The notes beneath the pieces were generated by a model. That model made no database searches and was not told where the DNA came from. It saw nothing but the letters and a program-made list of their open reading frames with translations. Position numbers and translations under genes: made by a program. A DNA stretch of 64,000 nucleotides from a virus, in the IMG/VR virus record IMGVR_UViG_3300006175_000011, positions 1 through 64,000 of that record, one strand, 5' to 3'. Positions 971-11,641 of the stretch are shown in pieces; the first letter of the stretch is position 1; each line of letters begins with the position of its first letter.

Positions 971-1798
971 CTATTCTCGTCCTTTCACTATCTTACGTAA
1001 CTTCCGGAAGTCGGGATCTTCGATGAAATCAGGAGCCTCGATCCCCTTGGGCTTCCTGATCTTTGTCGTGTAGACCTCATTCGGGCCCACCCGCAAACAA
1101 TAAATCTTCTTTATTTCTTTGGTCGTCTTCTTCGTCTTCTCATCTTTGATCTTGGTGACCTTGATGCGAATGAAGGTGTTGCCAACGATGTTGACGCTGG
1201 CGCATAGGTCCTTGTTGACTGAAGGCATTAACCTTGTCCCGACCTCGGGAGCAAGTTGATCCATGCCGTCGTCTTCTTCGTCACCCGCGTTGAATACCCG
1301 ATCCTGTGCGATGAAGACGATATTCACATCTTCCAAGGCACGAAAGTCCATGATGACCTTGATGAGCTCGCCGGCAATATGTCCCCAGTGTTGGCGTGTC
1401 AGCGTCCCGAAGTCTCCGGGCTTCTTGCCCTTCAACTTGACCTTTTGCTTCTCGACAAGCTCACGAACTAGGATACCCTGAAGCTGCGTCATCGTATCGA
1501 GGACGACAGTCTTGTAGGGTAACTTGCCTTTACTCGCTCGTTTGTGCAGCCAGAGGAGTTGCTCGAGAAGATCGTCGCTGGTCGTGATGTCCACCGCATC
1601 GATACCTTCGACATCGCTGATCGACTCTTCGCCGTTGTCGTTGATGTTGAGGTAGAGCATCGGCTTCGGGTAAGTCGCAGCGAGTGTCGTTTTCCCGGTA
1701 CCCGATTTGCCGTAGAACGCCGAGTCCATCTTACGTTGAATGTCGGCTACCGGCTTTGACCGAGGTGCGCGGTCCTCTTTGCGAATTGTGGTCGCCAT
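971..1798 (-). CDS. RecA-like ATPase, Sak4-type single-strand annealing/recombination protein
   Basis: A 275-residue P-loop ATPase of the phage AAA_24/Sak4 group. The Walker A motif GKSGTGKTT is at residues 30-38 and a Walker B strand TVVLDTM at about 97-103. Such proteins are RecA-core recombinases that work with a phage SSB in single-strand annealing. The gene lies directly upstream of the ssDNA-binding protein gene and downstream of a Cas4/RecB-like nuclease, the usual recombination set. It has its own promoter (TTGCGT, 17 bp, TATAAC at 1856-1828) and an AAGGAT ribosome binding site ten bases before the ATG. The RecA-fold call is strong; the Sak4 role rests on context. Confidence 0.8.
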   Translation of the reverse strand: MATTIRKEDRAPRSKPVADIQRKMDSAFYGKSGTGKTTLAATYPKPMLYLNINDNGEESISDVEGIDAVDITTSDDLLEQLLWLHKRASKGKLPYKTVVLDTMTQLQGILVRELVEKQKVKLKGKKPGDFGTLTRQHWGHIAGELIKVIMDFRALEDVNIVFIAQDRVFNAGDEEDDGMDQLAPEVGTRLMPSVNKDLCASVNIVGNTFIRIKVTKIKDEKTKKTTKEIKKIYCLRVGPNEVYTTKIRKPKGIEAPDFIEDPDFRKLRKIVKGRE

Positions 1799-1827
1799 GT
1801 TTCAGTGATCCTTCGGGGTAGATTAAC

Positions 1828-1856
1828 GTTATATCACCGCGGGTCGGTGAACGCAA
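1828..1856 (-). promoter_or_regulatory. Leftward promoter with an inverted repeat filling its spacer
   Basis: Minus strand -35 TTGCGT (1856-1851), 17-bp spacer, -10 TATAAC (1833-1828), with the ATG of the Sak4-type gene about 23 bases past the expected start site. The spacer (1834-1850) is a perfect 6-bp inverted repeat, TCACCG - CGGGT - CGGTGA, spanning the whole space between the two boxes. This looks like an operator placed so that a bound protein would block polymerase. Confidence 0.6.
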
Positions 1857-1860
1857 CACT

Positions 1861-2997
1861 TTAATCCTCGGTTTGGTCGCGATCAGTCGATTTATGGCTC
1901 AAATCTTCGCTCTGGTAATCGCGTTTCATTAACCACTCGATGTCTGATCCGGTCGCCTCGGCCTTGCACAGTTCTCGGTAGTCGCAACTGTTGCATTGGA
2001 AACCTATGTTCTGGTCTTTCTTTTTACCGAAGTTGTCCTGGATCTCTTTGGCGGTATCAACAAAGTCGTCCCAGATATTATCCACGATCCGAGGCTTGAT
2101 CGGACTGTAGAGTCGGATGAACCTGTTCTTCCGGTTTGTTTCAGCATCCGTCAGCATCTTCTTGAAGTCGGCCTTCTTGTGACCTTCCTGCTCGATCCAT
2201 GCACGAACTCGGGTCGGCAGCGTATCAATGCGAGCCTGGGAGATGCGCCCTGTGGCGGTAAGTTCACCGGGAACGTTGCATGGCTTACTACTGATGTAAT
2301 CCCACAGGATCCCGTCAATCGAGGGAAAGCCCATCTCTTCTAGTGCGCGGAAATAAACCGCGGCCTGAACTGAGCGCCAACGGTCGCTTTCGCTGGGCAT
2401 CCGACTGAACGTCTTATGCTCGATGAGCCACTTCATCTTCTTCGACTTAGCGATCATATCGATCTTGCCGGTGAACCATAGACCTTCACCAAGTTCGATC
2501 CGAAACTCATGCTCTGATGCTCGGCCCTTGTGTTCTATCGGTTTGAGCGTTCCCTCCCAATAGTCGAAGTAGTCTTCCATAATGAAACCGATGTCGGCAA
2601 GAATGTTACCATACATCTCACGTTCCTTGCGGAACATGGGACCTAGGTTCTTCTCATACTCCTTGAGTACCTTTCGCCACTTCTTGCCTTCAGCCTGTGC
2701 CTCGACAACTTCGTGAACGATGCCGCCGAACATCAGCGGGCGGCTGCGTTTCTTCTTTTGGATCCCAAGCACAAACTTGTTATGGAATGCACGACGGCAA
2801 TTTCGCCAAGTCTTTACCTTCGACTGACTGATGTTGATCTGGCCGTCAGACGTTAGAACAGTTGAGTGGTCATGGCCCGGTGCTTGATTGTGACCTATGC
2901 CGGCGCGTGCTGCCGCGATCTCCGTTGGGTTTTGTCGTGTTTGGGCTTCTTTTGCTTTGCGATCTCTTCTGCGATCTTTAACTGTTCTTCCAGCCAT
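1861..2997 (-). CDS. PD-(D/E)XK exonuclease, RecB/Cas4-like, probable Fe-S cluster
   Basis: A 378-residue nuclease. With the start at 2997 the catalytic elements are Asp180 (GKIDM) and Glu193/Lys195 (IEHKT), the PD-(D/E)XK pattern. Cys67 (NCRRAF) together with Cys335, Cys338 and Cys344 (CNSC and ELC) matches the four-cysteine layout of the AddB/Cas4 iron-sulfur clasp. It probably resects DNA ends for recombination with the Sak4-type ATPase and SSB that follow. The reading frame opens at an ATG at 3024 without a ribosome binding site. I chose 2997 because AAGGAT lies about eight bases before it. Either way the 5' end overlaps the polymerase gene by about 100 bases in another frame. The first 50 residues are basic and low in complexity. 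Confidence 0.75.
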   Translation of the reverse strand: MAGRTVKDRRRDRKAKEAQTRQNPTEIAAARAGIGHNQAPGHDHSTVLTSDGQINISQSKVKTWRNCRRAFHNKFVLGIQKKKRSRPLMFGGIVHEVVEAQAEGKKWRKVLKEYEKNLGPMFRKEREMYGNILADIGFIMEDYFDYWEGTLKPIEHKGRASEHEFRIELGEGLWFTGKIDMIAKSKKMKWLIEHKTFSRMPSESDRWRSVQAAVYFRALEEMGFPSIDGILWDYISSKPCNVPGELTATGRISQARIDTLPTRVRAWIEQEGHKKADFKKMLTDAETNRKNRFIRLYSPIKPRIVDNIWDDFVDTAKEIQDNFGKKKDQNIGFQCNSCDYRELCKAEATGSDIEWLMKRDYQSEDLSHKSTDRDQTED

Positions 2998-5489
2998 TTG
3001 CTCAATCCTTTTCCTTGTGACCATGCCCCGATCTTAGCTTCGGCTTCAATCGGTACACTCAATTCAATCTCAAAGTCTTCGAGTAACGAGGGATGACTCA
3101 TGATCTCCAATCCTCGTTTATACACATACTCGACCATATCGTTGCGAACCTCGATCAGCACAGCGTCATGAACTGTGCCGACAAGCCTGAACCAATTCCT
3201 GCTGAACTCCTCACGCATCTGAAGGGCGGCCATCAAGTTCAACTCATTGGCGAATGACTGTACTGGGCTGTTAATCGCTTGCCGTTGAGCTTCTCTGCGT
3301 TCAGGAGTGTCACGACCCCCTTGTGCAGCCGGTAGTCTACGTTTTCTACCAGACAGGCTCCGGACGTATCCATTAATCTGGGCAAACCTACGTTGCTTAT
3401 CGTGCCATTTAGGAAAGGCAGGATAGAGCTCGAAGAAAGCTTCTCGAGACGCCTGTGCTTCATCATCGCTAACGTCCACTCCGTAGTTGTCGCGGGCATA
3501 CATCTTGAACTTCTTCCACCACATGCCGTAGAGGTAGCCGAAGTTGATTGCCTTTGCTTTCTTGCGGGTTTCACCCCAGTTGATGAAGGCTTCTTTGAGA
3601 TCCTGAGTCTCCTTCCACTCGTCAACAACTCGCTTGGCTTCATCACCGCCGATGCCAAGGATATACTCGATGGCATCACTGTAATTCATTTTCTCGCCGC
3701 TGTGCAACTTAGCGGTTTTGATTACTTCCTTTCGATAGGCGGCACCACGTTCAATTTCGCGAATTGCAGTTTGCCAATGAGGGTCGCCCCCTTCATTGAA
3801 GACTCGCAACAGATTGTGCTCATCAGCGAGCTCAGCGGCAATCCGGAGCTCGATCTGCGAGAGATCCATCTCGATGAGGGTCCAACCGAGCGCCGCCGAT
3901 ATAAGAGATCTGATGCGAGGATCGCGAGGAACTTGCTGGAGGTTTGGATGCTCACAGGAAAGTCGGCCTGTAACAGTTCCATGAAGTTTGAAGACCGGAT
4001 GCAGTCTTCCGGCAACGTCAATGTAAGGTCTCCAACCTTCAATGAAAGCAGAGAGTTGTTTCTGAGCTGCTCTAACTCGGAGAAGGTCACCGACCATGGG
4101 ATGGTCAATTCGAAGTAAGACGCTTTCACTAACACTGTTCTTGCCTCCCTTCGTTTTATCGACGGGCTTGATCTTTAGGACGTTAAAGAGCAGGTCGCCT
4201 AGCTGATCGGCGCTGCCCCAGTTAATCTTCCCAGTCTTCTTATCGACCAGCTTTGCTTTACCGGCCCACTTCTCCAGTTTACCCAACGCGTCGGCGAGCT
4301 CTTCCCGAAGGTATGCTTCAGCCTCATCCATCTTATCCAGATGAATGAATACGCCTTGGTACTCAGCCTCAATGAACAGCTTGATACAGGGAACCATGAT
4401 GAGATCATGGACTCGCTTGACATCGTGGTCTTCATCGAGACCGTCCTTCAACGGCTTACGCAAAGCACGAGTGTAATAGACGTCGTGCGCCGCGTATTTA
4501 GCGTTCTTCGGAGACCACTCAGTTTTGTCCTTACCCCCGATATCCCAGTCCGCCGCGCCCAGCATCATCTGTGCAAGATACTTCAGGCCGTGAAAATCAT
4601 TCTCGTCGAGCAGGAAGTGCGCGAGCATCGTGTCGAATGCCACAGTCCACTTGACACCAAACCTGACAAGCATCCACAGGCAATCGAACTTGCCATTGTG
4701 GAAAATCATCTTGCAGTATTTGCGGATACGGATCGTCGTTAGGCGAACGATCTCTTTCAAATCCTTCGGCGACCAGATCCCCGCAGTCTCCATGGGAACA
4801 ACCCATTGTCGCTTCTTGCAGCCGAACTGCATGGCGACGACGCGCGGTAGGTTATTCGATCCGTGAGTGCCCTTGTGCTGTGCGAGCAGTTCCTTCGAAG
4901 CACGACCTGACTCGATCAACTCATCCTGCATCGTGGTAAACGGATAGAGTCGCGAGGTTTCAAGGTCGGCGGATACCCAACCCGACAGGTCCTTGAGCAT
5001 CGCTTTCACCTTGGGCCAGGTGTCTACGATGTGATAGTCTAGTTCACGTTCTTCGGGAATACCCCCGAAGTCAACGCATTCCCTTAGTCTCTGTATATCG
5101 CCCTGGATGACATCGATCCATTTCTCGTCATGGAGAGCGATGTTCGGGTGTAGAAGCGGGAGTACGACTCTTTTATCTCTTTCGATCGGCTTTCCTCGTA
5201 GCTTTGTGATGCCTTGTTGGTCGAGGAAAGCTTGGCAAGGAGTGTTCCCAAGTAGGACGACATATTTAGGATCCTTCTTTTCGAGCCGTTGCATGAATGC
5301 CGACTTGGCATTCTTAATCATGGTCTTGGTTACATTCTTGCCTTCGGCCGGTGCATTCTCCAGAACGTTTGTCCACCGAAAGTCTGACTCTTCGAAGCCA
5401 CACTTAAGCATGGCCTCCATGAGTATCTTCTTGGCGCGGGGATTGATCTCGTCGTGTTCGCCTACGACAGTGATTTGCTTTCGGCTCAC
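2895..5489 (-). CDS. Family A DNA polymerase with 3'-5' exonuclease and N-terminal uracil-DNA-glycosylase-like domain
   Basis: Replicative polymerase of the Pol I family, 864 aa. Residues 1-140 resemble the UDG superfamily (WTNVLENAP at 39-47; VVLLGNTP, a later RG and the LLHPN segment at 77-116). The usual GE-PG catalytic loop is replaced by GEHDEINP, so activity is doubtful. A DEDD exonuclease follows (Asp175/Glu177 in ADLET; HNGKFD; YAAHD). The polymerase motifs are A, DLSQIELR near 540; B, KAINFGYLYG near 648; and C, VHDAVLIEV near 770. No 5'-3' exonuclease is present. The likely start is a GTG at 5489 whose GTGA overlaps the stop of the dCMP deaminase gene. UDG-like fusions to phage family A polymerases are, as I recall, known from phages with hydroxymethyluracil DNA such as SPO1. 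Confidence 0.9.
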   Translation of the reverse strand: MSRKQITVVGEHDEINPRAKKILMEAMLKCGFEESDFRWTNVLENAPAEGKNVTKTMIKNAKSAFMQRLEKKDPKYVVLLGNTPCQAFLDQQGITKLRGKPIERDKRVVLPLLHPNIALHDEKWIDVIQGDIQRLRECVDFGGIPEERELDYHIVDTWPKVKAMLKDLSGWVSADLETSRLYPFTTMQDELIESGRASKELLAQHKGTHGSNNLPRVVAMQFGCKKRQWVVPMETAGIWSPKDLKEIVRLTTIRIRKYCKMIFHNGKFDCLWMLVRFGVKWTVAFDTMLAHFLLDENDFHGLKYLAQMMLGAADWDIGGKDKTEWSPKNAKYAAHDVYYTRALRKPLKDGLDEDHDVKRVHDLIMVPCIKLFIEAEYQGVFIHLDKMDEAEAYLREELADALGKLEKWAGKAKLVDKKTGKINWGSADQLGDLLFNVLKIKPVDKTKGGKNSVSESVLLRIDHPMVGDLLRVRAAQKQLSAFIEGWRPYIDVAGRLHPVFKLHGTVTGRLSCEHPNLQQVPRDPRIRSLISAALGWTLIEMDLSQIELRIAAELADEHNLLRVFNEGGDPHWQTAIREIERGAAYRKEVIKTAKLHSGEKMNYSDAIEYILGIGGDEAKRVVDEWKETQDLKEAFINWGETRKKAKAINFGYLYGMWWKKFKMYARDNYGVDVSDDEAQASREAFFELYPAFPKWHDKQRRFAQINGYVRSLSGRKRRLPAAQGGRDTPERREAQRQAINSPVQSFANELNLMAALQMREEFSRNWFRLVGTVHDAVLIEVRNDMVEYVYKRGLEIMSHPSLLEDFEIELSVPIEAEAKIGAWSQGKGLSKWLEEQLKIAEEIAKQKKPKHDKTQRRSRQHAPA

Positions 5490-5974
5490 GGTAGTTCTAT
5501 GACCTCATGCGAGAAATACTCAACAATATAGCCCGCTGGGGTGATAATGTAAACGCCTATATTCTTGTCCTGGAGTTTTTCGAGATGGCCATTGACTCGA
5601 TAGAGTTTCTCGAAGAACACCCGATCGATCAGGCCACAGGAGATGATCCGGTCGACGCACTCCTCGCAAGGACTGTCAGTGCAGTAGAGGTCGAACGCAC
5701 TTTTCTTGGGGTGGTTCGGCTTGAATACCTCGAGCAATGCATCGATGGCATTAGCCTCAGCGTGTAACGTCCCGCAGTTGCCCGGCACAATACCAGGACA
5801 GTGATTGCCGGCGCAGTGAGGTAGACCGGCCGCTGCTCCATTCCAGCCGATACTGACAGGCACCTTGCGATTGCGCGTTATGATAGCGCCGACGTTCAAA
5901 CGATGACAGGTGGAGCGTTTAGCCGCCACCTTCGTCATCTCCATGAACATAACTTCTCGCGATATCCTACCCAT
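5486..5974 (-). CDS. Deoxycytidylate (dCMP) deaminase
   Basis: Zinc-dependent dCMP deaminase (162 aa), converting dCMP to dUMP. The zinc and catalytic motifs are His71-Ala-Glu73 and PCEEC (Cys103, Cys106), with a further Cys/His-rich insert (HCAGNHC, about 53-59) as in T4-type dCMP deaminases. It would feed dUMP to the TS-fold enzymes encoded just upstream. The ATG at 5974 shares its A with the TGA of the preceding gene; an in-frame GTG one codon earlier is possible. The gene is tightly coupled to its neighbours on both sides by overlaps, consistent with one leftward transcript from about 9170. Confidence 0.9.
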   Translation of the reverse strand: MGRISREVMFMEMTKVAAKRSTCHRLNVGAIITRNRKVPVSIGWNGAAAGLPHCAGNHCPGIVPGNCGTLHAEANAIDALLEVFKPNHPKKSAFDLYCTDSPCEECVDRIISCGLIDRVFFEKLYRVNGHLEKLQDKNIGVYIITPAGYIVEYFSHEVIELP

Positions 5975-6843
5975 CACTGCTTCCCGAACAGCATTATGAA
6001 GTCATTGCGGAAAATATGAAGACTGCCGATCTGCATAAGAAATTTCCCGGGTCGAATGTCGTCCCACCGCGCGTCGAGAGAACGGAGTCGATCAAGGACC
6101 CAGAGAAGTAGCCGGGCGGTAAGGTACAGGTCATCACGGAAATGCCGCACGAAGTCGCAACTTCGGATATGGTAATTGATGTCAAGTCTTCCGTCGCGCA
6201 TAAGAAAGTGGTATCCAATAGTACACGGCGCACGCTTCGAACCACCCCCCGTATCCTCGGGAAACCATACCGGAAGATAGGCCTGACGGGTAAGGGGATC
6301 CGCGGATAGTAGGGATACCACGTCATTGAGGTCACCGTACTCATAGAGGATGCCCTTGTGAGGGGTGTCGGTATCCAGGTCTGTGAGTCTGATCCCATAA
6401 TCATCGGCGGTCCCAGTGGGTTCGGTAACGTGCCCGGCATACTTCGGCCAATATCGTTCCATATAGTTATGATTGAATTTGCCTCGTTCATCCAAGAACG
6501 TAGCGGCACTTTTTCCGTACGGCCAGTTCTGCCACTCTTTTCCGGGATTGATCGGGAACCCACAGACTCTCTCCTCGAAATGGTCGTCAGCCCAAGGCAG
6601 GTTGGGTTTGATATCGTCCTGCAGCGTACCAAGCGTTCCGCCGATTGCTGTGCTGGGAACCATCATCTCATCCATACTCACCCCGAAAGAGACGTGAGCG
6701 ACTTCGTGCGTAGCCATCTCGGGACGAGCACTGATATCGGATCCTTGCCACTTGTCAGTGTGTACGATCTTGCTTCGATATTGAAGCAGATGCGAGGCCT
6801 GCGTAATGGCCTGATTGAAAGTGTCGAACAATACGGGCTTCAT
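5974..6843 (-). CDS. Thymidylate-synthase-fold enzyme, probable dCMP/dUMP hydroxymethylase
   Basis: 289-residue member of the TS/deoxynucleotide hydroxymethylase superfamily. The nucleophile is Cys207 (RAPCTIGYHF) and the phosphate/nucleotide-binding segment is Arg227-Ser-Cys-Asp230. The C-terminal GSLHIF (273-278) matches GSLHVY of T4 dCMP hydroxymethylase. Asp238 occupies the place of the Asn that recognises uracil in thymidylate synthase (Asn177 in E. coli). T4 dCMP hydroxymethylase also has Asp there, in a segment that aligns here without gaps by eye. The product is therefore probably a 5-hydroxymethyl nucleotide. dCMP is the substrate suggested by Asp238, but the nearby deaminase and aGPT-PPlase-like gene also allow dUMP. 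ATGA overlap with the upstream gene and a GGAGG site seven bases before the ATG. Confidence 0.75.
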   Translation of the reverse strand: MKPVLFDTFNQAITQASHLLQYRSKIVHTDKWQGSDISARPEMATHEVAHVSFGVSMDEMMVPSTAIGGTLGTLQDDIKPNLPWADDHFEERVCGFPINPGKEWQNWPYGKSAATFLDERGKFNHNYMERYWPKYAGHVTEPTGTADDYGIRLTDLDTDTPHKGILYEYGDLNDVVSLLSADPLTRQAYLPVWFPEDTGGGSKRAPCTIGYHFLMRDGRLDINYHIRSCDFVRHFRDDLYLTARLLLWVLDRLRSLDARWDDIRPGKFLMQIGSLHIFRNDFIMLFGKQ

Positions 6844-7673
6844 TCTTCGTCCTCCTCGGGTTCTTGATAATCGTTGCGATGACCGGGGTGGTTATCGCGA
6901 AGGTATTTGGTCAATTTCTTTCGAAGCCTTCCTTTGATGCGGTTGTCGGCGTCCATCTTCACTCGAAGCGCCTGTGCGAACTTGGCGATCCCGCGGTAGT
7001 GTTCTTCGCATAGGTATCTTGCCGTCCACTTAATTATCCACTCGTAGAAATACTTATCCCTTACCTTGATCGCCTCAAGCTCAGCGATAGGGTCAGCCAT
7101 GTGAGGGATGGCGGTAACAAAATACTGAGGATGCACAGTGATGTTGGCAAAGTGGCAGGTAAGCCCCAGAAAATCCATACCAGAAAAATCAAAGTCCCTG
7201 AGCAAGACATCCCGAATAAAAACCAAGTCAGCAGGAAACTTCTTAAGAAGTTCCGTTGTTCGGTAGAATACGTCAATGAAGTACGCACCGTTCTTTCCTC
7301 CTTTGACCTGAGTGATTACCACCGACTGCAAGCAAGGCCCCATTACTGAGGCCCGCTTCGACTTCTTGATAGCATCATTCTTGACGAAGTGGTTGTAGCA
7401 GGTGAAGCCCACAGATCCGTAGGACGTCTTTGACCTACGAAGTTTCCAGAGTGTCAACGCGGCTTCGATGCTTTCCTCATGGACATAAAGTCTTTTGAGG
7501 TGAGACATCTTTGCGCCAGTATAACCGGCATCCTCAAGGATGAGTGGATCTTTATGATCCCATAGGTCATCAAATCGTATGGATTTCCCCCGAATAATTT
7601 TGCGACAACCTGAATAGAAGTCAGCCTTACGACGTGACAACTTCAAGACCTCTTTGATCCACTCATCCTTCAT
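6840..7673 (-). CDS. Second thymidylate-synthase-fold protein, divergent
   Basis: A 277-residue protein whose central part follows the TS plan: possible nucleophile Cys114 (MGPCLQSVVI), an Arg-containing nucleotide segment at 137-149 (YRTTELLKKFPAD) and a following His-Phe-Ala-Asn stretch in the place of the H-x-Y segment. Asp149 sits where TS has its substrate-selecting Asn. The Asp of the RSxD motif is Glu141. It is clearly distinct from the other TS-fold protein encoded directly downstream. Two adjacent TS-like genes suggest a specialised nucleotide modification step. The alternative is a non-catalytic partner. I cannot name the substrate. Confidence 0.55.
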   Translation of the reverse strand: MKDEWIKEVLKLSRRKADFYSGCRKIIRGKSIRFDDLWDHKDPLILEDAGYTGAKMSHLKRLYVHEESIEAALTLWKLRRSKTSYGSVGFTCYNHFVKNDAIKKSKRASVMGPCLQSVVITQVKGGKNGAYFIDVFYRTTELLKKFPADLVFIRDVLLRDFDFSGMDFLGLTCHFANITVHPQYFVTAIPHMADPIAELEAIKVRDKYFYEWIIKWTARYLCEEHYRGIAKFAQALRVKMDADNRIKGRLRKKLTKYLRDNHPGHRNDYQEPEEDEE

Positions 7674-7674
7674 G

Positions 7675-8619
7675 TTATGCGTTTAATCCATCACCGATAT
7701 AACCGGTATCAATGATCTTACCCGAGTTGTCGGCCAGGTGCTGCGTAGCCTCGGGATGAAAGATCTCATCGAAGATCGCGTTATCTTGAACGAGGTCGCG
7801 ATGATCCGGTGCTTGCCAACCGGCGGGCTTCCGAATGTCATACTTGACTTCACGGCCGCTATCCTGTGCGCCTGAGTCGTCAACAGCTCGAACCTTCGCC
7901 ATGTTAGCCGTGACGACCCGTCGCCAAGCCTCGTAGAAAGCTCTACGACCGAACTGCAAATCCGCGGTGCCCAGTATCACCCAGGCAGCATCGGCAAGAG
8001 CATCGAGTTGAAGCTCGAGGATATTGATGATATCTCGACGATCCTTGCGCTCAATGGCGTCGAGCAATTTCGGGTACTCATCCCGGTATTCGCCGGTCTC
8101 CTCGTCGTGGAACTTGACGCGGAAATCATGGAGGTCGGCCGGTAACATGCGGGGCTTACCAAGATATTCCTGACCGAACTTGGCATGGAATGCCGAGACA
8201 TCGCCGATGAAGTCCGGGAAGTCATGATCCCGAATGTGGAGGCCTCGAGTCACGGCTTCGGCCTGTGCCTTGAGAACAGTCTTGATCCAGCTCGTTTCTC
8301 CGATGGTCAATCGGCTATTCTGGAGCGGCCCCGCACTGACGAGCATATAACGAACGTCGCCGGCGTCCCCGTGTTGGAAATTAAAGGCAGCAACGACTTC
8401 ATCATCCTTGTCGGTCAAGGTAACCGAGGAGTTTTCGATACCTTGTGGCGTGAAGCGTTGACCCCATCGCTCAAGACTGGTCCAGAACATCATGCCTTCA
8501 TCGTTTCGGTAAGCAACACCGGGTACCCATTCTCCGTCGAACTCACTCTTGCCAAGCTGTTCGCCGATGTAGTGATAGAAGCCGCCATCCACATGGCGAT
8601 GCGTCGGTAGAAACGTCAT
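7675..8619 (-). CDS. DUF1653 domain fused to MazG-like nucleotide pyrophosphohydrolase
   Basis: 314 aa in two parts. Residues about 5-53 (YRNDEGMMFW and a following Leu/Phe-rich strand) match the small DUF1653 fold. Residues about 130-290 look like an all-alpha NTP pyrophosphatase (MazG/HisE type), with a helix carrying DISNI-like acids (LELQLDALADAAWVILGTA) and a Lys/Asp/Arg-rich C-terminal end (VKYDIRKPAGWQAPDHRDLV) typical of phage MazG-like proteins. Such enzymes turn dNTPs into dNMPs and can remove a canonical dNTP from the pool, a common feature of phages with modified bases. AAGGAAAG precedes the ATG. The gene is spaced by one base from the next TS-fold gene. Confidence 0.7.
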   Translation of the reverse strand: MTFLPTHRHVDGGFYHYIGEQLGKSEFDGEWVPGVAYRNDEGMMFWTSLERWGQRFTPQGIENSSVTLTDKDDEVVAAFNFQHGDAGDVRYMLVSAGPLQNSRLTIGETSWIKTVLKAQAEAVTRGLHIRDHDFPDFIGDVSAFHAKFGQEYLGKPRMLPADLHDFRVKFHDEETGEYRDEYPKLLDAIERKDRRDIINILELQLDALADAAWVILGTADLQFGRRAFYEAWRRVVTANMAKVRAVDDSGAQDSGREVKYDIRKPAGWQAPDHRDLVQDNAIFDEIFHPEATQHLADNSGKIIDTGYIGDGLNA

Positions 8620-8629
8620 CGATCTTTCC

Positions 8630-9121
8630 TTATGCTTGAGTGTATTGTTGATAGAAGTAGACGGTCGCGATTAGCTGATCCATGTCGTCGCCGATACGAT
8701 AGCAGAAGTGGGCATACTGTGCAGCCCACAGGCGATACTCCTGCAACAGGTTGTTATACTTCTCGTTGACCATCTTCATGTGGTCAGCGGTATCATGATC
8801 TTTCTCGACATGACCGTCGAGACCTCGTTGCTGCGCATCGCAGTAGATCAGGATGGGTTTGGCCTCATAGAAGATCATCTGACGACCAGGTGTAATAGGA
8901 TCACCCTCGAGACGAAACTTACCATATATCGCATTCGATACCACAGGATGCCTGACGAAGATCGTTCGTTCCATGTTTGCGTACCCGTCCACGCGAGCAT
9001 TTATTTCGTCGTCCGACCGCGGTGGCCCTTCACTTTCTTGCACACGCATGGTCATATACTCGCCGAACGCTCGGGCCAGCGTCGACTTGCCGGAGTTGTC
9101 CATACCTTCAATTACAATCAT
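8630..9121 (-). CDS. P-loop kinase (dNMP kinase or 5-hydroxymethylpyrimidine kinase type)
   Basis: A small (163 aa) P-loop kinase with Walker A GMDNSGKS at residues 6-13, in the thymidylate-kinase-like style. Its position as first gene of the operon with a MazG-like enzyme and two TS-fold proteins suggests one of two roles: phosphorylating a 5-hydroxymethyl dNMP (as T4 gene 1 does), or phosphorylating hydroxymethylated bases in DNA (as 5-hmdU DNA kinases do in thymidine hypermodification). The sequence alone does not separate these. The ATG at 9121 follows AGGGGCA and lies about 45 bases downstream of the leftward promoter. Confidence 0.65.
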   Translation of the reverse strand: MIVIEGMDNSGKSTLARAFGEYMTMRVQESEGPPRSDDEINARVDGYANMERTIFVRHPVVSNAIYGKFRLEGDPITPGRQMIFYEAKPILIYCDAQQRGLDGHVEKDHDTADHMKMVNEKYNNLLQEYRLWAAQYAHFCYRIGDDMDQLIATVYFYQQYTQA

Positions 9122-9150
9122 CGTAGAGTGCCCCTGTTTTACGATTGGCG

Positions 9151-9179
9151 TTGACCGTTAAATGTTTTGACAATATAAT
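9151..9179 (+). promoter_or_regulatory. Rightward promoter of the HTH/primase operon
   Basis: TTGACC (9151-9156), 17-bp spacer, TATAAT (9174-9179). The ATG of the small HTH gene lies about 27 bases past the expected start site, after a GGGG stretch. The -10 box shares bases 9174-9178 with the -10 box of the opposing promoter, so the two cannot be occupied by open complexes at the same time. Confidence 0.75.
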
Positions 9180-9201
9180 CCGGGACTCACGCCGCTGTCA
9201 A
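9173..9201 (-). promoter_or_regulatory. Leftward promoter of the replication/nucleotide operon
   Basis: Minus-strand TTGACA (9201-9196), 17-bp spacer, TTATAT (9178-9173), about 45 bases before the kinase ATG. It overlaps the rightward promoter, with the -35 boxes at opposite ends and the -10 boxes coincident. It is the probable start of the leftward transcript that carries kinase through polymerase. Confidence 0.75.
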
Positions 9202-9212
9202 CCGGGGTAAAA

Positions 9213-9410
9213 ATGGGCAGTCTCAAAGATTTCTATAGCGTTAAAGCAGCGGCGGAGATAATAGGCATAGAGTATATGGCCTTGCATCAACGCATTCATC
9301 GAGGAACGGTGGAAGTGGAACGACCGGGAGATAATATCGTTCTCATCAAAAGAGAGGAAGTACATAGGCTCAAAGAAATCGAACGTCTCAAGAAGGAGAC
9401 GTCCGAGTGA
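9213..9410 (+). CDS. Small excisionase/MerR-like helix-turn-helix protein
   Basis: 65 aa with an N-terminal winged-helix pattern of the excisionase/MerR class: YSVKAAAEIIGIEYMALHQR followed by a hydrophobic hairpin and a basic C-terminal helix. First gene of the rightward transcript, transcribed from the shared divergent promoter region and overlapping the primase-helicase gene by four bases. A regulator of that promoter pair or a DNA-binding accessory factor for replication are both plausible. Confidence 0.6.
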   Translation: MGSLKDFYSVKAAAEIIGIEYMALHQRIHRGTVEVERPGDNIVLIKREEVHRLKEIERLKKETSE

Positions 9411-11335
9411 GCGTCATTACACAGATCTGGAAAAATCAACCAGGCAAGTTCTTCTGCATCTCAACAAAATCCGCGGGGGCTAAATGGAAAGATAATTTCT
9501 TTTCTCCCGAGGAGTTCGGTGAGATCAAGGCTTTCCTCAAGGATAATAGCGACAAGGACATATACTTCTGCCCGCACGGATTTAATCGCCGGTCTCGGTC
9601 AAAGACTGAAGCGGTAATACCCAACCTACTGTGGGCTGACCTCGACTTCTCCGATCCCCGGGACAGGCGATTGTTCAAAGGACTCAAGCCAACCTACGCT
9701 TTCGAGTCATCGCCGGGCAGGTTCGTCGGCCTGTGGGAATTAAAGGAACCGATGACCGAGTCGTTAAACCGTCGACTCACCTATCACCTTGAGGCTGACC
9801 ATGGGGGGTGGGACCTCACACAGGTCCTTCGCTTTCCCGGTACCCGAAACTTCAAATATAAAACTCAACCTGTTGTCCGAGTCCTGTGGGATGACGGGGC
9901 TAAGTACTCGATCAAACGTATCGAAGCAATCGTTCCTCAAGAGGATGAGGATGACACCGAGGGGGGTGAAGATCTCTCACCCTCCGAAGTATTCGAAGAG
10001 TACCAGGGAAAGATGCCGCGTTGGCTTCGTCGTGAACTCATGGCGAAGAAAACTCACGGTCGTGCTGATCGCAGCGAGATGCTTTGGAAGCTTGAGAATG
10101 CCTGCATCGAATGCGGCATGTCGCTTGACGAGGCTTTTGCTGTCATCAAGAACAGCGTATGGAATAAGTTCGCGGGTCGTCGCAATGAAGACACGCAGCT
10201 CCGCCGGGAGCTTAACAAGATCGTACAAGAAAACTTCAAGCAGAAACCTAAAGGCGCCAACAAACGCCATATGAAATCCGATGAAGAAGAGTCTCGTGAA
10301 GAGAAGACTCAAAACAATTTCATCAAATTCGAGTCGATGGACGACGTCCAACAAGAAAAGCTAGACTTCCTGTGGAAACCATACCTTGCACGGGGTGAGG
10401 TGTCAATCCTCGAAGGTGATCCGGGATTAGGTAAATCTTATCTTGCACAGATGGTTGCCGGTAGCATTGCGACGGGTCGTAGGATCCCGTCCCCTTATAA
10501 GGGTCAACCGAGGGTGACAGGCCCTATCGTTTACTTCGACATGGAGAACTCCGCCGGTACTGTAACAAAGCCCCGGCTCAGTCAAAACGGGTTCACTGAC
10601 TTTGCTGGTCGTTACAACGTCGTGCAGCAACCTTTCAGCATCGATGATGATGAAGCATTGGATTATATCTATGAAGAGCTTGAAGCTATCCAGCCGAGCC
10701 TTGTTGTCTTCGACACACTTAACACATACATCGGACGGGCAGATACTCATAAGGCTTCCGAGGTTGCCCAAGCCTTCGGCATGTTCATGCAGATCGCCAA
10801 AGACTTCAACTGTTCGGTACTTGTATTGCGACATCTTACGAAAGGGTCAGGTCCAGCGATATATCGTGGGCAAGGATCCGTGTCTTTCGGTGGATTGGCC
10901 CGAGTAGTTATGGTTGTGGGTGTTGATCCTGAAGATACTGACACCCGCGCTGTAGCAATCGTGAAGATGAACTTCGCTAAGCCACCACAGGCGATGACGT
11001 TCCGCATTGAAGAACGACCGAAAGGAGCATCTGAGTTTGTCTGGGGAGACTATGTTAATCTATCTGCTCAAGAAATTCTCGATGCTTCGGCACAGGCTCG
11101 TCAAGAAGGTAAGCAAGGACAGGGTATCCAGGATGCGATGGAGTTCCTGGAGTCGACAATCACTGATGCAGCTGTAGAGCTGGAGAAACTGTATAGGATG
11201 GGTGAGAAGCGAAGCATATCTAAGAAGATGCTTGATCGTGCTGCTTCTAAGATGAACGTCGAGAAAAAAGTCAAAGGACGCAAAGAAAACCGCGTCGAGA
11301 AGTGGATCATCAACAGCAAAGCAGCCAAAGAATAA
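9407..11335 (+). CDS. Primase-helicase: RepB/prim-pol-like N-terminus with RecA/DnaB-like ATPase
   Basis: 642 aa. Residues 1-180 resemble the primase domain of phage and plasmid replication proteins, with the acidic WADLDF (77-81), SSPGRFVGLW and LRFPGTRNFK. Residues about 325-560 form a RecA-like ATPase of the AAA_25/RepA type, with Walker A GDPGLGKS (about 339-346) and Walker B VVFDTLN (about 432-438). The last 70 residues are charged and may bind DNA. It would unwind the fork and prime for the polymerase encoded in the opposite direction. The start is a GTG at 9407 (GTGA overlap with the HTH gene) with AAGGAG nine bases upstream. Confidence 0.8.
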   Translation: MSVITQIWKNQPGKFFCISTKSAGAKWKDNFFSPEEFGEIKAFLKDNSDKDIYFCPHGFNRRSRSKTEAVIPNLLWADLDFSDPRDRRLFKGLKPTYAFESSPGRFVGLWELKEPMTESLNRRLTYHLEADHGGWDLTQVLRFPGTRNFKYKTQPVVRVLWDDGAKYSIKRIEAIVPQEDEDDTEGGEDLSPSEVFEEYQGKMPRWLRRELMAKKTHGRADRSEMLWKLENACIECGMSLDEAFAVIKNSVWNKFAGRRNEDTQLRRELNKIVQENFKQKPKGANKRHMKSDEEESREEKTQNNFIKFESMDDVQQEKLDFLWKPYLARGEVSILEGDPGLGKSYLAQMVAGSIATGRRIPSPYKGQPRVTGPIVYFDMENSAGTVTKPRLSQNGFTDFAGRYNVVQQPFSIDDDEALDYIYEELEAIQPSLVVFDTLNTYIGRADTHKASEVAQAFGMFMQIAKDFNCSVLVLRHLTKGSGPAIYRGQGSVSFGGLARVVMVVGVDPEDTDTRAVAIVKMNFAKPPQAMTFRIEERPKGASEFVWGDYVNLSAQEILDASAQARQEGKQGQGIQDAMEFLESTITDAAVELEKLYRMGEKRSISKKMLDRAASKMNVEKKVKGRKENRVEKWIINSKAAKE

Positions 11336-11587: not shown

Positions 11588-11617
11588 TTGTCGATTAACG
11601 TTCGACACCTTTATAAT
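11588..11617 (+). promoter_or_regulatory. Possible rightward promoter
   Basis: TTGTCG (11588-11593), 18-bp spacer, perfect TATAAT (11612-11617). It is followed by CGCG-CAT-CGCG, a short hairpin near the expected start. It could drive the gene at 11759 from further upstream. Confidence 0.5.
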
Positions 11618-11641
11618 CGCGCATCGCGTGCTACCTGTCAA
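11612..11641 (-). promoter_or_regulatory. Possible leftward promoter facing the primase-helicase gene
   Basis: Minus-strand TTGACA (11641-11636), 18-bp spacer, ATTATA (11617-11612), or GATTAT with a 17-bp spacer. It exactly overlaps the rightward TATAAT. A transcript would run through the intergenic region and then antisense to the primase-helicase gene. No leftward gene is present. Confidence 0.45.

Follow-up and report, generated by a model that had tools for sequence, protein, structure and literature searches.

Overlapping divergent promoter-like sites with a conserved -35 pair and an exchangeable regulator and core in a phage replication region

Promoters that serve two divergent transcripts are a recent discovery in bacteria, and little work has been done on how they are controlled (PMC12825309). 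Opposing RNA polymerases cannot bind to such promoters together, and in five tested examples from E. coli basal activity was too low for competition, which arose only after one -35 box was improved or when an activator was acting (PMC12825309). At PsoxS/soxR, described in the same source, SoxR located in one spacer blocks the opposite transcript. The site reported here resembles the bidirectional promoters of Warman, Grainger and colleagues (PMC12825309, PMC10268837) in that -10 bases are shared and the divergent genes are functionally linked. In contrast to the published examples, it lies in a phage replication region, its near-consensus -35 boxes are conserved across deep divergence, and regulator and core are exchanged jointly while the -35 pair stays. 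The divergent Pr/Pc promoters of pLS20, with the regulator RcoLS20 (PMC4207663), likewise overlap and one of them drives a DNA-binding regulator; in pLS20, however, each -10 box lies on the -35 box of the other promoter, one promoter is weak and needs activation, and the regulator acts as a tetramer with looping of the DNA. A literature search restricted to titles and the beginnings of abstracts, and reaching only a minority of subscription papers, found no such promoter described in a bacteriophage, which is no proof of absence. We read the locus as a probable, well-conserved phage member of an established promoter class, most notable for the exchange of its regulator and core.

The analysed window comprises 64,000 of the 67,016 bases of a virus record in IMG/VR (IMGVR_UViG_3300006175_000011), and the named phages nearest to it by primase are the Brevundimonas phages Polewnik and Strzyga. 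When the left 24 kb was compared with named phages for closely similar DNA, no match came up, and relatives were gathered by protein-level searches. One 11-kb contig (IMGVR_UViG_3300025915_000144; L002, L004 and L010) had best segments matching the primase and polymerase of the window at 100%, so it represents the same phage or a very close one. The site lies within 91 bp of intergenic DNA, flanked by a thymidylate-kinase-like gene that points leftward and by two overlapping rightward genes for an HTH protein and a primase-helicase (Table 1). The initial annotation had placed leftward polymerase, recombination and nucleotide genes on one side of the gap and a small HTH gene followed by a primase-helicase gene on the other, in agreement with the gene calls and family matches.

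Table 1. Coordinates of the divergent promoter-like sites and of the surrounding genes in the window.
Feature	Position	Strand	Remarks
Rest of packed leftward arm: pyrophosphohydrolase-like, unknown, thymidylate synthase, dCMP deaminase, DNA polymerase, exonuclease, Sak4-like	971..8619	-	
Thymidylate-kinase-like P-loop protein, first leftward gene	8630..9121	-	PHROG 761
Inward-facing pair GTTGAC-N41-GTCAAC framing the putative bidirectional promoter	9150..9202	.	pair class in 22/27 non-redundant loci
Rightward -35, TTGACC	9151..9156	+	
MALH-class spacer block GTTAAATGTTTTGACA, candidate HTH site	9157..9172	+	between rightward -35 and -10, over predicted leftward start
Leftward -10, TATATT	9172..9177	-	18-bp spacer
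Rightward -10, TATAAT	9174..9179	+	17-bp spacer
Leftward -35, TTGACA	9196..9201	-	
65-aa MerR/Xis-like winged-helix protein, MALH type	9213..9410	+	
Primase-helicase	9407..11335	+	PHROG 3123; primase and helicase families

Two opposite promoters overlapping over a shared -10 core had been proposed for the gap, and the sequence scan, the simulation and the conservation described below all confirmed this arrangement. Both promoter-like sites are of the sigma70 type and carry 11 of the 12 consensus bases, as TTGACC-17-TATAAT on the plus strand and TTGACA-18-TATATT on the minus strand, and four bases (9174-9177) are common to the two -10 boxes, a shared -10 being the mark of a bidirectional promoter. 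The minus-strand site needed correction: its TTGACA is present as proposed, but the TTATAT at 17 bp (9178-9173) has only 3/6 of the -10 consensus and the TATATT at 18 bp is the better box. Judged from the usual distance between -10 box and start, rightward transcription would begin near 9185-9186 and leftward transcription near 9165. The predicted divergent starts, derived from the -10 positions only, are thus about 20-21 bp apart in the window (23 bp in the clade with a YdaS-like HTH protein, see below), near the distances of 10, 18 and 23 bp given as common in the published work.

Promoter-like words are frequent in this DNA, with 22 observed in 20 kb compared to 15 expected, as would suit a chance resemblance to promoters in AT-rich intergenic sequence. 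Two plus-strand and two minus-strand sites of 11/12 or better occur in the 64 kb, and nowhere else in the window than at the present locus do opposite sites overlap with both at 11/12 or more. In a simulation of 60 windows that preserved the dinucleotide transitions, none contained a pair at 11/12 and one contained a pair at 10/12. A single further overlapping pair with at least 10/12 is found in the window, at 11588-11641 (TTGTCG-18-TATAAT and TTGACA-17-GATTAT), in the 423-bp gap 3' of the primase gene; when this pair was sought in 18 relatives, only L020 had overlapping sites no more than 700 bp from the primase, and these were of different make-up.

Relatives of the primase and polymerase for the comparison came from IMG/VR, from phages with names and from a single genome contig. 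The pair TTGAC-N(32-43)-GTCAA was present at the kinase junction in 22 of 27 non-redundant loci, compared to a mean of 0.07 loci and a maximum of 2 in 1000 rounds of dinucleotide shuffling. This conservation is stronger evidence than the scan of a single window that the observation is real, and a chance resemblance, contradicted both by the 22 relatives and by the lack of an equally good pair in the simulated windows, is hardly credible. Primase identity to the window goes down to about 37% among the loci with the pair, and in the strict holders the interior between the six-base arms measures 34-43 bp. The exact pair is missing from L046, L069, L071, L073 and L076; L073 has GTTGAT instead of GTTGAC, and the right side reads TGTAAAC in L046 and L071. 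The strict-pattern scan covered 59 loci including near-copies, 27 with the pair and 32 lacking it. The latter are made up of seven loci in which the pair is degenerate or absent at the kinase junction (the five named above, L077 and L078), L063, which has different neighbour genes, and 24 more distant primase loci, at all of which the pair was absent and six of which (L034-L037, L039 and L040) belong to named phages whose genes are arranged differently. The count of 27 non-redundant loci excludes near-copies (L014, L019, L021, L029, L032, L077 and L078), repeat fetches of the same contigs, L063, the distant loci and L092, which was found later. Locus L012 matched the conserved DNA string exactly, but it was dropped as the match falls within protein-coding sequence at a different locus. 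The same junction of kinase, YdaS-like HTH and primase genes was also seen on a 3.9-kb genome-bin contig labelled Alteromonadaceae (L085), which probably derives from a phage and was binned with bacterial DNA.

In the 22 loci with the pair, -10-like boxes are located 16-18 bp inside both TTGACs, and the cores overlap in the relatives as well. The mean best -10 score at these spacings was 4.31 in the rightward and 4.91 in the leftward direction, while the maxima in 2000 rounds with shuffled interiors were 1.49 and 1.37, respectively (the -10 weights were approximate), and the mean score for a single spacer was highest at 17 bp in both directions. Since the boxes score far above the shuffles in both directions, both promoters are probably real and conserved. 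An A at position 2 together with a T at position 6 of the -10 box was found in 18/22 loci rightward and in 13/22 leftward. The leftward box reads TATAAC, lacking the usual final T, in six of the 22 loci (manual count), and there the leftward promoter is less sure. These boxes end in the same way as the Caulobacter RpoD -10 consensus GCTANAWC (PMC8144410).

The position of these boxes also bears on whether the GTTGAC...GTCAAC arms could instead form an operator, each being a half-site for some DNA-binding protein encoded by phage or host, with a real promoter in one direction only. On both arms TTGAC is preceded by G almost without exception, and further inverted TTGACG/CGTCAA repeats are found 3' of the primase in L017, L018, L020 and L066, the second arm having by eye no properly spaced -10 box, as would be expected of operators. 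Against this stand the -10-like boxes 16-18 bp from both arms and the persistence of the arms together with an unrelated HTH family and in L027, which keeps the pair although a search ahead of its primase found no HTH gene. We consider operator half-sites quite unlikely. A replication origin with the repeats as initiator sites would fit the location between the replication arms and the cumulative GC skew minimum near 8-9 kb, but the third-position GC skew by gene has no origin-type sign change there and the spacing of the pair suits two promoters, making an origin very improbable. Control by CtrA, the site of which is TTAA-N7-TTAA, was also considered and rejected, this motif not being seen in the core by eye. 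Such control is described for alphaproteobacterial phages (PMC9437464).

The structure model of the HTH protein is a winged helix (mean pLDDT 87) and its nearest folds include MerR-family regulators, RacA, BldC and the Xis protein of mycobacteriophage Pukovnik. MerR-family chains matched the model with Z up to 8.6, the best Foldseek E value was 0.005 with zero matches reaching 0.001, and Pfam MerR_1 was matched with an E value of 0.0075, too weak to pass the cut-off of that family. Pukovnik Xis (PDB 4j2n) was both the best PDB sequence match (E = 0.0014) and the second Foldseek match; it is also a small phage winged-helix protein, whereas the present HTH gene is the first of a replication operon. 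Of 13 members, 9 matched PHROG 66 ("excisionase and transcriptional regulator"), but the window protein did not. As modelled, the protein is a MerR/Xis-like winged helix, with weak sequence support for this assignment. Two traits of MerR systems are absent, namely the C-terminal effector-binding domain (the protein has 65 residues and one final helix) and the over-long promoter spacer of about 19 bp (17 bp in the window). The relatives have two types of recognition helix, MALH and KTLL, that are split at one branch of the HTH tree with a support of 99. In a further clade the HTH protein is unrelated to the MerR/Xis-like class and YdaS-like, the match to Pfam YdaS_toxin being below the cut-off.

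Comparison of the loci points to a joint exchange of HTH type and core. On the primase tree 5 and 6 MALH/KTLL changes were needed, at least 4 and 5 of which are forced by well-supported branches, and on the kinase tree at least 3. The primase tree offers four well-supported independent pairs, and in all of them the HTH type and the core switched together (sign test, p = 0.125, which is as low as four pairs allow). Among the loci in the trees, the sequence AAANNNTTTGAC was found in 6/6 with MALH and 0/8 with KTLL; one more MALH locus, L092, has kept TTTTGACA and lacks the left arm. The exchange of core and HTH gene can be seen directly in L018 and L020, where identity in 60-bp steps was 0.72-0.93 in the kinase gene and 0.70-0.95 in the primase gene as against 0.55-0.61 in core and HTH gene. 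In the YdaS-like clade the outer arms are retained and the centre is TTGACCAGTTTAATGTCAA or near it.

The 16-bp spacer block has a mean pairwise identity of 88% within the MALH class, compared to 34% for the adjacent kinase leader and 62% for the right-hand spacer; the KTLL block is kept less well, with about 0.50 identity within its class (L013 excluded). In the window GTNAAANNNTTTNAC occurs once (0.04 expected), and GTNAAANNNTTTGAC occurs once in the 67-kb record. Palindrome tests per locus were below 0.05 only in L026 (0.04), with 0.075-0.585 in the YdaS-like class and 0.23-0.675 in the MALH class, and palindromy is kept merely as a hint because these tests were mostly not significant. In L015 both arms of TTGAC-N9-GTCAA were altered, to TTTAC-N9-GTAAA.

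Both promoters might be real and yet be left alone by the HTH protein, in which case its type and the core would travel together only as neighbours. The two are adjacent, any exchange ending in the kinase and primase genes carries both, and four independent pairs are too few for significance. Linkage of neighbouring DNA does account for part of the co-exchange, but it would leave unexplained why the MALH block is so much better conserved than the equally linked kinase leader next to it, and we regard mere neighbourhood as unlikely. The pattern suggests a shared switch with a replaceable regulator. An earlier proposal that the HTH protein could bias the direction of transcription is in this respect backed, as far as the link between gene and core goes, by the repeated co-exchange and by a conserved block confined to the MALH class, whereas binding itself is a prediction.

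We think it rather probable that the locus is a conserved bidirectional sigma70-type promoter in whose spacer the HTH protein blocks the leftward start and damps its own gene. Two inward-facing -35 boxes would flank one AT-rich core, and because this shared core contains both -10 boxes, host RNA polymerase would load in one orientation at a time, to transcribe either the leftward polymerase/nucleotide operon or the rightward HTH and primase-helicase genes. The initial annotation had proposed such exclusion; for the promoter class it agrees with the literature, according to which opposing polymerases cannot co-bind, and for this phage we infer it, together with the use of the two promoters. Competition between the two outputs is plausible since both promoters are near consensus. 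On the whole the initial interpretation has partial support, the balance between the two outputs being a prediction. The HTH protein would most likely sit on the spacer block, a prediction supported by its conservation within the MALH class, and would there, by analogy with SoxR, cover the predicted leftward start and part of the region before the leftward -10 box while lying inside the spacer of its own promoter. We would then expect it to act as a repressor, stopping initiation in the leftward direction and lowering its own expression, and not as an activator. MerR-type activators correct 19-bp spacers, and repression is favoured over activation of this type because the spacer is 17 bp and not 19 bp, although whether the protein represses or activates is a matter of guesswork.

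The nearest parallel is PsoxS/soxR with SoxR (PMC12825309), which also involves a MerR-type winged helix, the candidate site here being likewise in one spacer and over the opposite start. Unlike SoxR, the present protein has 65 residues and no effector domain, the spacer is 17 bp instead of 19 bp and binding is predicted, and unlike at PsoxS/soxR the promoter with the candidate site in its spacer has the regulator gene on its downstream side.

A more tentative idea, which we regard as possible but doubtful, is that the bidirectional promoter forms a fixed chassis for host RNA polymerase, on which the regulator gene and the core operator are swapped as a cassette (MALH, KTLL or, in another clade, YdaS-like). 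If so, a replaceable orientation selector would set the order and balance of the polymerase operon and the primase-helicase, and it might also decide mutual repression among co-infecting phages. The choice of direction would here set replication enzymes against each other, and the natural exchanges of regulator and core offer ready-made pairs for asking if a small winged-helix protein picks the orientation of polymerase.

Two minor observations concern the DNA 3' of the primase in relatives. Within 700 bp of the gene in L018, L020 and L066, eight-base inverted repeats (ATTGACGY...RCGTCAAT) surround a rightward promoter-like site, and the second arm is not accompanied by a suitably spaced -10 box. 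Behind a leftward promoter-like site 3' of the primase, interleaved complementary stretches were found on the minus strand of L018 (about 4921-5125), L020 (about 4921-5132) and L072 (about 4930-5149), formed by GCCCCG/CGGGG and CCTGATC/GATCAGG and in L072 by other letters; an Rfam search of these stretches gave no match, and by eye they could form an H-type pseudoknot RNA.
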